A DNA stretch of 64,000 nt from Alphaproteobacteria bacterium (lineage in GTDB: Bacteria > Pseudomonadota > Alphaproteobacteria > Caulobacterales > Parvularculaceae). A program made the position numbers and the translations under genes. The notes beneath the pieces are model-generated. The model had not been told where the DNA came from. It saw only the letters and a program-made list of their open reading frames with translations, and ran no database searches. Shown here piece after piece: positions 2 through 8,374 of this stretch. The stretch covers positions 186,001 through 250,000 of the forward strand of contig JAUIMC010000004.1 in NCBI GenBank assembly GCA_030433215.1, read 5' to 3'. Each line of letters starts with the position of its first letter. Within the stretch, counting starts at the first letter, position 1.

Positions 2-964
<963 letters not shown>

Positions 965-1052: not shown

Positions 1053-1595
1053 CTAGCCGCACGCGCCCGTGCGGCGCGCCTCGATGACGAAGCGGGCCTG
1101 TTCAAGCGCCTTCATCGCGAGCTTCATCTGGGCGTCGCTCACTTCCGCGCCGCCCGCGCCCTCTTTCAATTGCGCGTCGAGCTTCATGCGCACTTCGACC
1201 CGGGTCTTCTCCCGGCCCACGGCGCCCCGATAGACGAAACGGTTGGCGCCCGAGGCGAGCTTCGGATCGGCGGGGCACGAAATCTCTCCGGCGACGGCGT
1301 TGCCTTCGCGCGCGCCGCGCCGCGTCGTGCAGCTATAGTGCAGCTTGTAATAGTTCTCCGCCAGGAGATGCGGGAACGAGGCGCTTGCGCTTTCGCGAAG
1401 ACAATAGGTTTGCGCGGCGTCCTCGGGACCGGCATGCTTTAACAATCCGGCCCCGGAAAGGGTTATCTCGTAAAGGCCCGGCGCCGGATCGACCGGCGTT
1501 TCGCTCGCCGGGTCGGCGCGATCGGAACAGGCAGCCGCCGTCCCGCAGATGACGGCCGCGATGAAATACCGACGCCGCCTGGGAAATCCGTTCAC
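1053..1595 (-). CDS. Putative DUF3617-like lipoprotein
   Basis: Small exported protein of unknown function, about 180 residues. The frame is open further upstream to a GTG at 1616, but a GTG at 1595 is preceded by GGAGG at good spacing and gives a compact signal peptide (basic NGFPRRRRYF, then IAAVICGTAAAC), so I prefer it. The AAAC site could be a lipobox, though a weak one. The mature part contains PAPGLYEITLSG, four cysteines and a C-terminal helical stretch, resembling the DUF3617 family of small periplasmic proteins; this assignment is by general resemblance. It lies 130 bases downstream of, and in the same direction as, the TAXI-channel gene, so it may be its distal partner, though both could have separate promoters. 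Confidence 0.6.
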   Translation of the reverse strand: MNGFPRRRRYFIAAVICGTAAACSDRADPASETPVDPAPGLYEITLSGAGLLKHAGPEDAAQTYCLRESASASFPHLLAENYYKLHYSCTTRRGAREGNAVAGEISCPADPKLASGANRFVYRGAVGREKTRVEVRMKLDAQLKEGAGGAEVSDAQMKLAMKALEQARFVIEARRTGACG

Positions 1596-1728
1596 AGCGC
1601 TTGCCTCCTCCGCCACGCCCCAATGGCGAGAGACTAGCCCGTGAGCGTAAAGAGGGGATTGATGGAAAAGGGAGAATAAACAAGGCCCCTTCCCGGCCCG
1701 CCCTCACTTGGGACGGCGGCGCTCGAGC

Positions 1729-4700
1729 CTACAGGGAGGTGCTGTAGTCGATATCGTCATAGTCATCGACCGCCGCCGGCTTCGGCTTGGTCACGGCGTC
1801 GCCGTGCGCCGGCCTGTCCTCGCGCTTCAGCCAGTCGCTCTTGCGCCGGTCGAGCACGACGACAAGCTGGTCGCCAGCCTGAACATTCGTCTGGGTGATG
1901 CGTTTGCCGATGACTGTGCGGAAATGATAATCGAAATCGCCGGTCTGATTTTTCAGCGCCTTGCGTTGCGTGACCGGCAGCCAGCCGATCAGCCGGAAGC
2001 CTTCGATCCGCGATTTCAGGATCGCCGCATAGGGCTGCCCGCAAATGCCGTCCGTTTCCTGCACTTCAAAAGAATAAAGATGAACGCGGTCGGTCACGTT
2101 CAACAAGGCGACCACATAATCGAGGATCTGGCTTTTCTCGTAAATCTCCTTGGTCAAGAACCGTTCAACCAGCGTGAGGCTGCAAATAATCCCGGTTGCG
2201 CCAGCGGTTTTGAACATTTCCCGGTTCTTGGCATTCAGCGCTTCGACGGTGATCTGAACCGGGTGATCCGGCTGGCGTTGCTGGAAATATTTCTTGAGAA
2301 GGCGCGTGTTCAAGATCGTCGTCGCGTCAATCTCGTTCAGATCAACATCATTGCTGCACGAACTGCGCTGTTCCTTGTTGGTGAGGAGAATGATGTGGCT
2401 GTAAATCACGTCCGGGTTCAGGCAAGCGGTAATCTCCTGATGGGTCATCAGCCGCGTTGGGGCCGGGTGTCCGTCGAGATGGGTCTGATCGTTCAGGACA
2501 TTGAGGCCTTCGTGGATGGTGGGAAACTCCTCTTCGCCGAACAGTAAAATGCCGGCAGGTTTTTTCCGGTGAATGCGGATGTCGTCCGCCGTGACTTCCT
2601 TGCATTGCTCAATCGCGGAAATGTCGCGGCGCTGCTCAATCGCGTTTCTGTTTCTGGCGCTGAAGATCAGGACATTGTCTTTTTCGAGAACAGTCGACCG
2701 CCCTTTCAGCGTCGTGAGCGGCAGGAAGAACGGCTTGTCTTCGCCCTCGCCCGCCGCGCCGCCGCCGAAGGATGAATCGAAAAGCCCCCGCTCCCGGTCC
2801 TGGCCGAGAACAAGGCCGATGAGATTGGCGCCGCGGCGGATGAGGTGCTGATGGGCCTTATAGGCCTCCTCGCCGGCGATCTTTTCGCCCGTCTTCTTTT
2901 CAACATTCTCAACGGACTCCGCTATGAACTGGTCCTGCGAGTTATAAGTCAGCACATCGAAGATAAAATCGACCAGCAGCGGGCTCACGGTCGACAGCAC
3001 GGCCATTCTCGCAATCAGCTTGTCGGGCGATATCAGCGTATTGCATCCGCAGGCGACGAAATGCGCGATGTTCTTGTCGAACGCCAGCTCGGCGCAGATA
3101 TGCATGTCCTCGCGGATTGTGCGCAAATTCATCACGGTCAGAACGCCGGTGAGATTGCCTTTTTCCCTATGCTTGCAATCGCACAGCACGATGGCGGTTT
3201 TCGCCTTCTGCGCGTTGGCGCTTTTCAGGCTGTCGCGGTCGGAGCTGTCGCCCTGGCAATAATGCACGAAACGCTGGTCGAAATTGTATTTTTCAACCGG
3301 CGATTCATCGCCGCAATCGGCGATGATGGTGATGTCCCGCTTTGCGTCCACATCCTCGCCGGTCAGATTGAAGATGATGCCCGGCGCCTTTTCGTTCCAT
3401 CCGCAGATCAGCACATGCTCGCTTTGCGTTGAGCAGGTTTCGCCCTTCATGCGTTTTTCACGCTGGCGGTTGCTCTGCGCGATCAGGAAAAAGATAAAGG
3501 TGATCGGCCCCATAATGCCGACCAGCGCCATGAAGTTGGCGATCAGCAGGCCCCATGTGCTTTGCGGCAGCGTATCCTGCAAGGTCAGACCGCTGACCAC
3601 GAAGGAGAACAGCCACAACGCGCCGTCCCACAAATTCATGCCGATGAATTCGTTGTCGATATTGTAGGTTTGCGAATAGGCGGCCTCGGTCAGCTGCACC
3701 AGCCAGAAAGAGATGATGAGCGTGATGACGGCGGCGCTGATGGCGATAATGCCCGGCGCGATCCTGGCGACGAAATCGACCGCTCTTTGGCTCAGGCTCA
3801 ATTCGCCGCGCGCGGCCGTCTCCCCAAGGCGGTTATAGGTGGTGCGATACCGCACCGCGAGATAACAGACGAAAAGAATGGCGAACCAGGCCAGCAGCGA
3901 TAGGCTGATCAGAGCCCTTATGGGCCACATCGCTTCCAGATAGCCGGCTCTTGCGAGCTCGGCGGGAACGGCGTTGTGATAAGGGATCGGATGGGACACC
4001 AGCGCCGTTTCCAGATCGCCCAAGCTCGGCCATTTCTCCTTTAATTGCGGCCAGGCGGCGATGATCTCGCGCGTGATGGCGACCGCATCGTTCCGCGACA
4101 CGCTGTCCGCAATCACAAGATAGGCCGTCACGCTCAGATGCGGGTTGCTGACGTCATCGGGGCCGACGACGGTTGTCGGCTTGTAATAGGGGTATTGTTC
4201 CGACAGCGACTGGATCACGCGCAGCGGCAGAAAGAGGCGGCGAACAATGTCGTCCTCATTCAGCGCCACCAGCTGTCCCGTCATGAAAGCCGCGTCAATG
4301 TCTCCGCTGCGCAACTGGGCGAGGCTTTCGGCCTGCGCAAGATATCTGGAGTTGAAATCGACGCCTTCGGTAAGCCCCGCCTCGTCAAGAATATGCGCCG
4401 CATTGTAATAGGTGCCGGAGCTTCGCGGACCGACGCTCACTTTCTTCCCGCGCAAATCGCCAAGCAAACTGATGCCGGCGTCGGCCCGTACGACAACCTG
4501 GACATATTCCTCGAAAAGCGGAAGGAGGCTCTGAAAATCGGAAAAGCGCGTCAGGCCGTTCTCACCGCGATAGACATAATGCGCCAGGTCATTCTGGACG
4601 ATCGCCGCGTCGACCTCGCCGCTGGAGAGTTTGTTGAGATTGTCGAGCGTGCCGCTGGTTTCGACGACCGCGATCGGCGCATTGAGTTCCGCCGCCAGAT

Positions 4701-4824
4701 CGCCCGCAAGCGCATGATAAGCCCCGCCCGGCTGCCCGGACCCGAGCCTCAAGGACCCGCCGCCTGATTGCGCGTGGGCTGTTGGCGCGGCAAATAAAAG
4801 CGCCAACAGGAAAATAATGCGCAA
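1729..4824 (-). CDS. TAXI-type periplasmic receptor fused to a pore-loop ion channel with two RCK domains
   Basis: 1031-residue membrane protein that reads as a ligand-gated ion channel. Residues 1-18 are a signal peptide. Residues 22-295 match the TAXI family of TRAP-transporter binding proteins (LRLGSGQPGGAYHALAGDLA, GKKVSVGPRSSGTYYNAAHI, DIDAAFMTGQ). One membrane helix follows (about 303-325), a short basic cytoplasmic loop, then a helix-pore loop-helix unit: helix 350-376, pore region 395-424, helix 425-449. The pore region aligns without gaps to K+ channels (ALW...D..P...WG), but the filter position reads GLTLQD instead of TVGYGD. RCK1 starts at 469 (HVLICGWNEKA) and RCK2 at about 755 (AGILLFGEEEF), with a TrkA-C-like end near 920-995. 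The topology is self-consistent: receptor outside, RCKs inside. The start is TTG; no in-frame ATG or GTG exists before the upstream stop. Ligand and ion are unknown; some TAXI proteins bind glutamate. Confidence 0.88.
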   Translation of the reverse strand: MRIIFLLALLFAAPTAHAQSGGGSLRLGSGQPGGAYHALAGDLAAELNAPIAVVETSGTLDNLNKLSSGEVDAAIVQNDLAHYVYRGENGLTRFSDFQSLLPLFEEYVQVVVRADAGISLLGDLRGKKVSVGPRSSGTYYNAAHILDEAGLTEGVDFNSRYLAQAESLAQLRSGDIDAAFMTGQLVALNEDDIVRRLFLPLRVIQSLSEQYPYYKPTTVVGPDDVSNPHLSVTAYLVIADSVSRNDAVAITREIIAAWPQLKEKWPSLGDLETALVSHPIPYHNAVPAELARAGYLEAMWPIRALISLSLLAWFAILFVCYLAVRYRTTYNRLGETAARGELSLSQRAVDFVARIAPGIIAISAAVITLIISFWLVQLTEAAYSQTYNIDNEFIGMNLWDGALWLFSFVVSGLTLQDTLPQSTWGLLIANFMALVGIMGPITFIFFLIAQSNRQREKRMKGETCSTQSEHVLICGWNEKAPGIIFNLTGEDVDAKRDITIIADCGDESPVEKYNFDQRFVHYCQGDSSDRDSLKSANAQKAKTAIVLCDCKHREKGNLTGVLTVMNLRTIREDMHICAELAFDKNIAHFVACGCNTLISPDKLIARMAVLSTVSPLLVDFIFDVLTYNSQDQFIAESVENVEKKTGEKIAGEEAYKAHQHLIRRGANLIGLVLGQDRERGLFDSSFGGGAAGEGEDKPFFLPLTTLKGRSTVLEKDNVLIFSARNRNAIEQRRDISAIEQCKEVTADDIRIHRKKPAGILLFGEEEFPTIHEGLNVLNDQTHLDGHPAPTRLMTHQEITACLNPDVIYSHIILLTNKEQRSSCSNDVDLNEIDATTILNTRLLKKYFQQRQPDHPVQITVEALNAKNREMFKTAGATGIICSLTLVERFLTKEIYEKSQILDYVVALLNVTDRVHLYSFEVQETDGICGQPYAAILKSRIEGFRLIGWLPVTQRKALKNQTGDFDYHFRTVIGKRITQTNVQAGDQLVVVLDRRKSDWLKREDRPAHGDAVTKPKPAAVDDYDDIDYSTSL

Positions 4825-5464: not shown

Positions 5465-8374
5465 ATGACTTGTCTCAAAAGGGAAAAGGACAGGCTCGGC
5501 GCAACTGCGGAGCGAACGCCGCGCCGGGACACGCGCCTTCTAAGCGTTTCCTTGACGGCTCTGGCGGCCGCCATTCTTAACCCGGGCCACGCTTTAGCGG
5601 ACTGCACCGGCAACAACACGGATATCGTCATCTGTGACGGAACCGACAGCGCCGCCATCGCCGACGGATCGACCCCGCCCGGCGAGACCGGCAACCGGCC
5701 TTTTTTGATCAATCTGCTTCCGGGCGCTGATGTGGGTGTTGTCAGAGGCATTCTTCAATCGGGCAGCCCCAGCCTCAACCTTTCGACGCTTGGCGAAAAG
5801 CCGCCGGGGGTCGGCCAAATCAATATCGGGACGGGCGCCCATGCCGGCTTTATCGCGGTAGAAGGCCCGGGCGAAATCACGATATCCAACCAAGGCGAAT
5901 TATCCGATAGCGGAAGCATCTTTTTCGACCCCGGCCAGGCGAAACTTTCCGACGGGTACGGATTTATCAAAGCCTCGGTCACCAACGGAACTGACGCCGT
6001 CCTCGCCGGGGGGATCGGCGGCGGGGGGCCGGTGCTGGTCTCTTTCACCAATTTTGGCGAGGCCTCCGGCGCGACCCAAGTCACACAATTCACCAACAAA
6101 GCCGGCGGCGTTTTCAATGGCGAAGTCAGAAGCGGGTTTGCCGAATATCTGAGTCTTGTCGGGGCCGAGACCGTAAATTTTATCGACGGCATGCCGGTCG
6201 TCGATATCATTCCCGTTTCATTTCATAACGAGGAAGGCGCGACCATTAACGAAGCCGGCGGCGGAGTTTTCCCGACCGATGCGGTCGTGTTCGAGGATTT
6301 CACATTGCTGAATGCAGGGGGAGCCCGGCGCTCCGTCGCGCTGGAACAGACGGCGATCAATGACGGGCTGATCGCCGGCTCGGTTCGCATCATGAACGGC
6401 TCAAACGCCGATCTTGACAATGACGGCGAGGCGGACCCGTTTTACATTCGCGAAGAGGGGCTGTTCACCTTCGTCAACAATGGCGACGTGACCGAAGGGA
6501 TATCCGGTCTCGACACTGTCCTGAGCATTGAGAGCAAGGGCGATATTCGTATCGAAAACAACGGCGCCATCGGCGCCGTCGCGCCAGACAATGCGTTCGA
6601 AACGAACGGCATCGTTCTTGGCGGCGGCAACGACACGGTGATCAATGGCGGGACCATTATTGGCGATGTAAGGCTCGGCGGCGGCGACGACAAATTCCTG
6701 CTCGATCTCGATGCTGACGGCACGCCCATGGTGGACGGCAATATCGACGGGGGCGCCGGCAACGACGCCTTCGGGGTTATCAGCACCAGAGGCGACAAGA
6801 CGGCGATCATTGGCCCGACGCCGGGATCGTTCGAAAAAATCGCGGCGGAGGCTAAAGGCGACGGCGTAAGGCTCACTCTGAACGCGCTAAATCCGGGTCA
6901 GGTGATGACGGAAACCCTCGTGGCTTCGGGCGACGGCTCCATTTTCAGCAATCTTGACTTCAACGTCACGGGAAAACCACTTCTGGAGATCGAAGATTCC
7001 GGCACATATGTTCAATTGAATGGCGCCGGCGTCGTAACCAACGGTTCAGTTGCACGTTTTGGGGACGCGGGGCAGAGCCTTGTCATTGGCGGACCGCTGC
7101 ATCATGAGGGCGAAACAGGCTCGGTGTTTGAATTCGAGAGCCCCGGCTTATCGGAAATTCTTCTCATCGGCGGTGTTTTGACCACCTCCAGCCTGACACC
7201 CATCGAAAGAATTGGCGCGCCGGCGACCGACGGCCTGGTCGTCAGACTCACCGGTGGAGAAATCAGAAGCGGAGGAACAACGGCGATTTCTTCAAATGTA
7301 GCGTCGAACATCCACAATGTTAGCGGAAAAATTATCGGAAACATTCAGCTCCTGAACGCGTCAGCCCTGGGGTCGGGCGACTTCATGAATGAGGTCAGTT
7401 CTGTTTCAGGCGAGATATTCGGCGACATTACCTTTGGCGGACGCAGCCGGTTAGAACTCTTTGGCAGCAGCGTCGCCGGCGATATCGACTTCACCGCCAA
7501 CCAGTCGGATGTCGTCTTGCTCACGAGCGCACAGATCAACGGCAACATTCAACTGCGCGGCGCCAATGACTTTCTCGCAATTGATGGCGTTGGGTTTGAA
7601 TCCGGTGACGTTCAGATCGGCGGGGTCGTCGACGCCGGCGCCGGCGTCGACACGTTTCGTTTCTTCGCCCCTAGCTTCGGTGGAGCTGCCACATCCACTA
7701 TCAACAACGCAGATCAGTTCCAGAACTTCGAATTCTTTGAAAAAACCGGCGATGGAAAACTGATTGTCGCGGACGGCGATTTAAAATTCATAGACGGGAT
7801 CATCAGAGAAGGCTCAATGTCCCTTGCCAAGGACGCCAACAGCACCTTCAACTTTCTGATTATCCAGAGCGGCGCCAGCTTCGCCGGCAACGGCAAGCAG
7901 ACAGGCACGGTTAGGACGCAAAAGGGCGGAACCTACACGGCCGGGGACTCCATCGGATCGAACACGCTGATCGGCGATCTCCTCATTGAGGAAGGCGGCT
8001 TCCTCGAGGTCGAGTTCGAGCTCACCCCCGACGGCGCTATTTCGGACGAAATCAATATCGACGGCGATCTTTTCCTCGACGGCTTTCTGAAACTCGTCTT
8101 TCTCGACGGCCTGTCGCCGGACGCGGACTTTTCGTTCGACTTCCTGAATGTCAGCGGCGGCGTGACGCTCGGCGACAGTTTCGACATCATCGTCGAGGGA
8201 CTGATGGATGTCGCCTTCGGTCTCGACTTCGACCCTGTGACGGGACGGATCGCCTTCAGCGGCATTGGCGACCCTACGCCCTCGGAAGTGCCGCTGCCCC
8301 CCGCCCTGTTCCTGTTTCTCGGCGGCGCCGGCCTGCTGGCGGGCGTCCGGCGGAAAAAGCGCCTGGCGCCCTGA
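5465..8374 (+). CDS. VPLPA-CTERM sorting-domain surface protein with beta-helix-like repeats
   Basis: 969-residue secreted protein. The N-terminus has a long basic region (KREKDRLG...RTPRRDTRLL) and a hydrophobic core ending near AAILNPGHALA, an extended signal peptide. The body is Gly/Asn/Asp-rich with recurring short strands of the type NNGAIG, GGGNDTVINGGTIIGDVRLGG and GNIDGGAGNDAFG, as in right-handed parallel beta-helices of adhesins and autotransporters. No C-terminal beta-barrel is present. Instead it ends SEVPLPPALFLFLGGAGLLA plus GVRRKKRLAP, a VPLPA-CTERM tail (motif, membrane helix, basic end) of the kind cut by exosortases. Likely exported and anchored or released at the surface with exopolysaccharide; no exosortase gene is in the window. 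It runs convergently into rpoD with a shared terminator. The flanking remnants suggest local gene shuffling. Confidence 0.85.
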   Translation: MTCLKREKDRLGATAERTPRRDTRLLSVSLTALAAAILNPGHALADCTGNNTDIVICDGTDSAAIADGSTPPGETGNRPFLINLLPGADVGVVRGILQSGSPSLNLSTLGEKPPGVGQINIGTGAHAGFIAVEGPGEITISNQGELSDSGSIFFDPGQAKLSDGYGFIKASVTNGTDAVLAGGIGGGGPVLVSFTNFGEASGATQVTQFTNKAGGVFNGEVRSGFAEYLSLVGAETVNFIDGMPVVDIIPVSFHNEEGATINEAGGGVFPTDAVVFEDFTLLNAGGARRSVALEQTAINDGLIAGSVRIMNGSNADLDNDGEADPFYIREEGLFTFVNNGDVTEGISGLDTVLSIESKGDIRIENNGAIGAVAPDNAFETNGIVLGGGNDTVINGGTIIGDVRLGGGDDKFLLDLDADGTPMVDGNIDGGAGNDAFGVISTRGDKTAIIGPTPGSFEKIAAEAKGDGVRLTLNALNPGQVMTETLVASGDGSIFSNLDFNVTGKPLLEIEDSGTYVQLNGAGVVTNGSVARFGDAGQSLVIGGPLHHEGETGSVFEFESPGLSEILLIGGVLTTSSLTPIERIGAPATDGLVVRLTGGEIRSGGTTAISSNVASNIHNVSGKIIGNIQLLNASALGSGDFMNEVSSVSGEIFGDITFGGRSRLELFGSSVAGDIDFTANQSDVVLLTSAQINGNIQLRGANDFLAIDGVGFESGDVQIGGVVDAGAGVDTFRFFAPSFGGAATSTINNADQFQNFEFFEKTGDGKLIVADGDLKFIDGIIREGSMSLAKDANSTFNFLIIQSGASFAGNGKQTGTVRTQKGGTYTAGDSIGSNTLIGDLLIEEGGFLEVEFELTPDGAISDEINIDGDLFLDGFLKLVFLDGLSPDADFSFDFLNVSGGVTLGDSFDIIVEGLMDVAFGLDFDPVTGRIAFSGIGDPTPSEVPLPPALFLFLGGAGLLAGVRRKKRLAP

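Follow-up and report, generated by a model that had tools for sequence, protein, structure and literature searches.

Can a solute-binding domain of the TAXI family act as the receptor of an ion channel? This question is raised by a single reading frame close to the start of the analysed window, a stretch of 64,000 nucleotides from an alphaproteobacterial genome of the Parvularculaceae. A preliminary description of this DNA had placed a receptor-channel fusion at 1729..4824. These limits were retained, whereas the strand had to be corrected: the gene lies on the minus strand and is read from 4824 to 1729. As the surrounding open frame (1044 codons) exceeds the ORF by just 13 codons, the start of the channel is uncertain by little. 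The signal peptide was assigned by eye as MRIIFLLALLFAAPTAHA, followed by Q. All features are listed in Table 1.

Table 1. Features of the channel gene, with residues of the encoded protein and positions in the window.
Feature	Residues	Position	Strand	Basis
Whole coding frame, 1031 aa + stop		1729..4824	-	TTG start
Signal peptide	1-18	4771..4824	-	by eye; hydrophobic stretch 3-21 (hydropathy)
TAXI solute-binding domain	23-295	3940..4758	-	TIGR02122, NMT1_3, alignment to 8S4J and 1us4
Extra helix TM0	298-326	3847..3933	-	hydropathy
Putative cytosolic linker	327-354	3763..3846	-	7/28 columns invariant, n=8 sequences
TM1	355-378	3691..3762	-	hydropathy
Putative pore helix and filter	398-424	3553..3633	-	MthK profile match; filter columns; pore-only profile below significance
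TM2	425-452	3469..3552	-	hydropathy; MthK profile match
RCK1	466-640	2905..3429	-	TrkA_N 7e-9; MthK; POLLUX-like profile 96.3% for residues 464-749
RCK2 (predicted)	753-1000	1825..2568	-	POLLUX-like profile 86.0%, E 5.1e-6; reversed control 0.3%

The anatomy that had been noted in one frame, with signal peptide, TAXI domain, extra helix, helix/pore-loop/helix, RCK1 and RCK2 in this order, is conserved in eight genomes. Hydropathy analysis revealed the N-terminal stretch and the long helices TM0, TM1 and TM2 in 8/8 homologues, along with weak extra stretches inside RCK1 (window protein and L011) and near the pore helix (L074 and L076). Seven residues of the linker are invariant among the eight sequences (Y330, R332, G334, Q346, A348, D350 and A353). 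The domain search that the preliminary description had called for gave TIGR02122 above its cut-off as well as matches to NMT1_3 and TrkA_N (NCBIfam, Pfam). Judged from the sequence, the assignments of the TAXI domain and RCK1 can be taken as certain, and those of the pore and RCK2 are supported less strongly.

In order to see how far this architecture extends, we followed the survey across genomes that had been proposed at the outset, which gave seven further genes with the same domain order and thus eight co-linear members, including the window gene, in two families, aligned from end to end. Based on a five-sequence profile, full-length members occur in 2/62 genomes of the window's own family (window included; any match in 4/62) and in 6/137 genomes of one other family, f5 (any match in 10/137). 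Identity between the members of the two families amounts to 33-35%. A two-sequence profile matched 76 of 299 genomes of the order, five of these matches being full length. One of 40 relatives is a close copy with 80% identity (G021); the only relative among 26 pattern stretches of a genome-contig scan, found in a Parvularculaceae MAG, stems from the same genome and was counted once.

Outside the order, the full architecture was not seen in the samples of class and phylum genomes scanned with channel-part and full profiles. The channel part matched 6 of 385 class genomes, comprising, besides the window's own, five further RCK proteins (1.6e-5 to 5e-4), and 12 of 398 phylum genomes, with a full match for the window's own and G021 only. 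The full profile matched 174 of 318 class genomes at 1e-10; apart from the window's own, every match listed ends at or before model position 324, in the TAXI part. At most two candidates per genome were scored in the latter scan, where any full-length relative would come first, and the class samples of 385 and 318 genomes overlap. Four scans of viral contigs returned no relative, and 0/174 and 0/139 matching plasmid records contained a place covering 80% of the query; a TAXI annotation was carried by 17/20 and 3/5 of the plasmid matches listed.

These relatives also bear on the integrity of the frame. Because they are co-linear and keep the same order, the fusion is no frame-fusion artefact, and a sequencing or assembly error that merged two genes can be excluded: the seven other frames, of 1016-1041 aa, have the same domain order without internal stops, nothing was found in favour of such an error, and its probability is vanishingly small. 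Likewise, the architecture is not a product of chance, since seven further genes share the order and the comparison of the window gene with L011 gave a low dN (0.07-0.18 by region), with dS saturated or close to it (2.06 for the TAXI part, full saturation in the other regions).

Other TAXI proteins were observed as well. In L003, L005, L007 and L069, the open frame spans ~440-530 codons, with one helix at the N-terminus and another, plus a tail, at the C-terminus; most TAXI matches listed for the order sample have frames of this length. A 692-codon open frame (L085) apparently contains two TAXI-related sequences in tandem.

The genomic neighbourhood was compared by all-against-all blastp of ORFs of at least 100 aa, using the initial 14 kb of the window plus seven further stretches, one of which (L061) is a contig of 5.2 kb only. 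No neighbour was common to all eight regions. The window and its sister genome have rpoD and dnaG near the channel gene in common, and the close pairs L072/L061 and L074/L076 share flanks. One gene, lolA by Pfam, is located ~1.8 kb upstream on the same strand in L073 and L074/L076, that is, in three f5 members from two genera; here, the channels of L073 and of L074/L076 are 47% identical. None of these shared genes points to what the channel does.

In the window, a 969-aa ORF (5465-8374, plus strand) without a Pfam match at E 0.01 is found between the channel gene and rpoD. Its C-terminal tail, VPLPPALFLFLGGAGLLAGVRRKKR, presumably represents something akin to a PEP-CTERM/VPLPA sorting signal. 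No ORF matching it was found in the sister genome (L071), where 110 bases lie between the channel gene and rpoD. Furthermore, positions 146-964 (plus strand) encode a Peroxidase domain (PF00141, 2e-31), which we take to be the end of a KatG-type gene, and a 187-aa ORF downstream of the channel gene (1053-1616, minus strand) matched DUF3617 with 2.7e-5, just above the cut-off.

What could the outer part recognise? TIGR02122 was matched with an E value of 3.2e-44 (151.1 bits versus a cut-off of 84.35) over residues 5-285, spanning positions 7-311 of 320 in the profile, and Pfam NMT1_3 with 1.5e-26 (residues 28-284). The closest solved relatives of the N-terminal part are TAXI proteins, including 1us4, deposited as 'putative GluR0 ligand binding core', and a TAXI profile of all eight members matched 1us4 (TtGluBP) with 2.1e-39 and VcGluP (8S4J) with 6.3e-30. 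According to the accessible part of PMC11574862, glutamate is contacted in VcGluP by Y45, S75, Q93, E125, Y200 and M201. The first four of these align with Y36, T59, Q77 and E106 of the window protein; all eight members retain the Tyr, Gln and Glu of the putative ligand site, and the fourth position is T or S. At the positions of Y200 and M201, which differ in most members, F or I and M or V are found, respectively. The same part of that paper gives affinity losses of 213-fold for the Tyr, 990-fold for the Gln, 14-fold for S75 and only 1.3-fold for E125, and lists Tyr in 78% and Gln in 54% of an alignment of 59 TAXI proteins (PMC11574862). As Tyr and Gln are this common among TAXI proteins, the ligand residues do not single out glutamate. 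The conserved site is in agreement with an amino-acid ligand, which is not proof, and an amino acid such as glutamate or glutamine appears most likely as the outside ligand.

In 8/8 genomes, the channel harbours the sole TAXI domain above the TIGR02122 cut-off; the window genome encodes two weaker TAXI relatives below it. A TAXI-type TRAP permease above the TIGR02123 cut-off was detected in 0/8 channel genomes and 2/14 control genomes, where two of the eight are only 65-69% complete and weaker matches to the permease model occur in 7/8. It could be assumed that the TAXI domain has become a mere anchor or assembly part and that gating proceeds from the inside by the RCK domains alone. The domain is less conserved than RCK1, with 35% versus 43% mean identity between the window protein and the f5 members and 74% versus 89% between the window protein and L011. 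However, the retention of the ligand-site Tyr, Gln and Glu in all eight members across ~35% identity and a dN/dS of 0.085 in the TAXI part argue against this, and we consider a purely structural role quite unlikely.

Next, we analysed the pore. An eight-sequence profile of residues 296-700 aligned with MthK 38-292 in one stretch leading from the pore helix through TM2 to RCK1 (3.9e-12), and more weakly with BK channels. The best solved relatives of residues 393-661 are likewise MthK, and CASTOR matches residues 460-632 (5.9e-4). The pore region alone gave no significant match in the profile search (best E 0.83), reached 1.7% against the POLLUX-like profile described below, and was assigned to no Pfam family in the three members examined. 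Among the sequences listed for this region, 7/9 are K+ channels aligned at the filter, namely KcsA (twice), KCNQ2 (four times) and Lmo2059, which we take to be the channel KvLm; the other two are a GPCR.

A pore that on its own remains below significance would also fit a protein other than a channel, either a membrane receptor with a closed pore-like anchor and signalling by way of the RCK domains or a transporter that depends on a binding protein; indeed, a TAXI domain fused to the transporter GltS is on record in the available text of PMC12344293. Against both variants stands the MthK match, which continues unbroken through pore loop, TM2 and RCK1. To our knowledge, three membrane helices are moreover too few for the transporter families considered here, and we estimate a non-channel function to be very unlikely.

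In the register of the MthK and KcsA alignments, the filter region of the window protein reads VVSGLTLQD (residues 409-417). The K+ signature TVGYG is absent in 8/8 members: TVGYGD is replaced by GLTLQD in the window's family and by GFTEND, once GFTENN, in the other, and both GYG glycines are lost throughout. With TVGYG missing, K+ selectivity cannot be taken for granted, and the missing canonical filter also means that conduction is not guaranteed. The same receptor-channel might nevertheless be K+ selective despite its changed filter, in which case a nutrient on the outside would open a pathway for K+, as in GluR0. Among solved structures, K+ channels are the nearest relatives of the pore loop and RCK1, and both the Asp behind the filter and the Pro three positions further on have aligned counterparts in KcsA and MthK. 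On the other hand, both glycines are replaced in all members, and CASTOR, an RCK-type channel without TVGYG, is described as a Ca2+ channel in the accessible part of PMC6697748; a K+-selective pore thus appears unlikely. Regarding topology, the Lys and Arg charges (4 in the TM0-TM1 loop, 0 in the TM1-P loop and 5 after TM2) fit an arrangement with TAXI outside, RCK inside and the pore loop entering from the outside.

RCK1 was identified by Pfam as TrkA_N at residues 471-600. With a set of four POLLUX-like proteins from bacteria, the channel part could be aligned over 471 columns (98.6%, E 5.1e-16). This set consisted of L009, L010, L014 and L016, leaving out L013, L015, L019 and L027, which by eye resemble single-RCK channels or antiporters. 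Cut apart, both RCK1 (96.3%) and RCK2 (86.0%) matched the POLLUX-like profile, compared to 0.1% and 0.3% for their reversed controls and 1.3% for the TAXI domain as an unrelated control. The comparison of RCK2 with the family's own RCK1 was not significant (6.7%). Castor_Poll_mid (PF06241), a domain characteristic of CASTOR and POLLUX, is present in L009 and L010 and was not found in 8/8 members at E 0.01. Based on the tandem-RCK match without PF06241, we regard the channel family as related to CASTOR/POLLUX and do not file it as a member.

Tandem-RCK channels with more helices are found in a further family, f189 (L018, L020-L022, L024 and L026). Their frames of 891-963 aa encode many helices and RCK1-like domains, and TVGYG is replaced by a TDPGN-type filter; L018 has no Pfam match at E 0.01. 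The tandem-RCK profile built from these six sequences, of which L020 runs into a contig end, and leaving out L023 and L025 (contig end as well), matched the channel in RCK1 (89.6%) but not in RCK2 (0.3%) or the pore (1.0%). A scan of 78 genomes of the class concerned gave nothing at 1e-8.

Overall, three findings support a receptor-channel: eight genomes share the architecture, the residues of the putative ligand site are retained, and none of these genomes has a TAXI-type TRAP permease above the cut-off. The protein is probably a ligand-gated cation channel of the pore-loop/RCK type, with an amino-acid-like ligand outside and RCK modulation inside. The anatomy and the receptor-channel reading of the preliminary description are hence supported; an assumption of K+ selectivity is not. 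What we infer for the tetramer, orientation, gating, ligand and ion of the channel can be pictured as follows. Four subunits would form the pore, each with an intact periplasmic TAXI lobe whose C-terminus is tied to TM0, from where the chain would continue through the conserved cytosolic linker into TM1. With the extra helix TM0, the chain would have the arrangement of K+ channels, with a pore loop on the outer side and a cytosolic C-terminus. When the lobe closes around its ligand, this movement may be transmitted via TM0 and the linker to TM1 and the pore, and the tandem RCK domains may form a cytosolic ring that sets the opening or its threshold by an internal ligand or ion.

More tentatively, we propose as a possible, still speculative extension that amino-acid-gated receptor channels arose here by a separate origin. 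Such a channel would combine an intact glutamate-type TAXI lobe outside, a tandem RCK ring inside and a cation pore without K+ selectivity, being either non-selective or permeable to Ca2+. Coupled by a single tether and an added helix, in contrast to GluR0 and animal glutamate receptors, it would detect the coincidence of an external nutrient with an internal signal.

The author of the preliminary description knew of no described TAXI-gated channel, and our literature search, in which subscription papers and preprints were mostly outside the scope, likewise brought up none. The searches of the PDB and the literature turned up no homologue described as an ordinary channel. For bacterial channels gated by a binding lobe, one design is known, GluR0; if our reading is true, the TAXI channel family would be the second, in which an undivided lobe from a different family is combined with an additional helix and an RCK ring on the inside, and one chain could read outside and inside signals. 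It would allow a direct test of how a binding lobe can drive a pore when only one tether connects them, and of the ion conducted by a GFTEND-type filter. The lobe of GluR0 is of the SBP_bac_3 type, which was not among the nine Pfam families found at E 1 in the window protein.

Comparing the protein to known systems, it shares with the TAXI binding proteins of TRAP transporters (VcGluP, TtGluBP 1us4) the whole-length binding domain and the site formed by Tyr, Gln, Glu and Ser/Thr; while the latter occur in soluble or lipid-anchored form and supply TRAP permeases, the domain in the window is fused to a pore-loop/RCK module. With MthK and RCK-gated K+ channels it has the order of pore loop, TM2 and RCK1 in common, in one profile match, and differs in the lack of TVGYG, a second RCK in the chain, the extra helix and the receptor domain. 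CASTOR/POLLUX (DMI1) and their bacterial relatives also show a pore followed by tandem RCK domains, alignable over 471 columns, and neither side has TVGYG; in contrast to them, the window channel gave no PF06241 match at E 0.01, has a different filter and carries the added receptor domain. The known TAXI fusions, as far as the available text of PMC12344293 goes, are to GltS, a Na+/glutamate symporter, and thus also place a TAXI lobe on a non-TRAP membrane protein; the partner differs, being a pore-loop/RCK module in the window.

Finally, GluR0 and the prokaryotic ionotropic glutamate receptors, as presented in the accessible part of PMC2950845, likewise join an outside binding-protein lobe to a pore-loop channel. 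Their binding domain consists of two segments flanking the pore helices, whereas the TAXI domain is whole at residues 23-295, precedes all helices and is connected by one tether, with TM0 and RCK domains in addition. In ionotropic glutamate receptors, the pore loop enters from the inside (PMC2950845, same part); in the TAXI channel its orientation would be the opposite, because the added helix turns the loop over.
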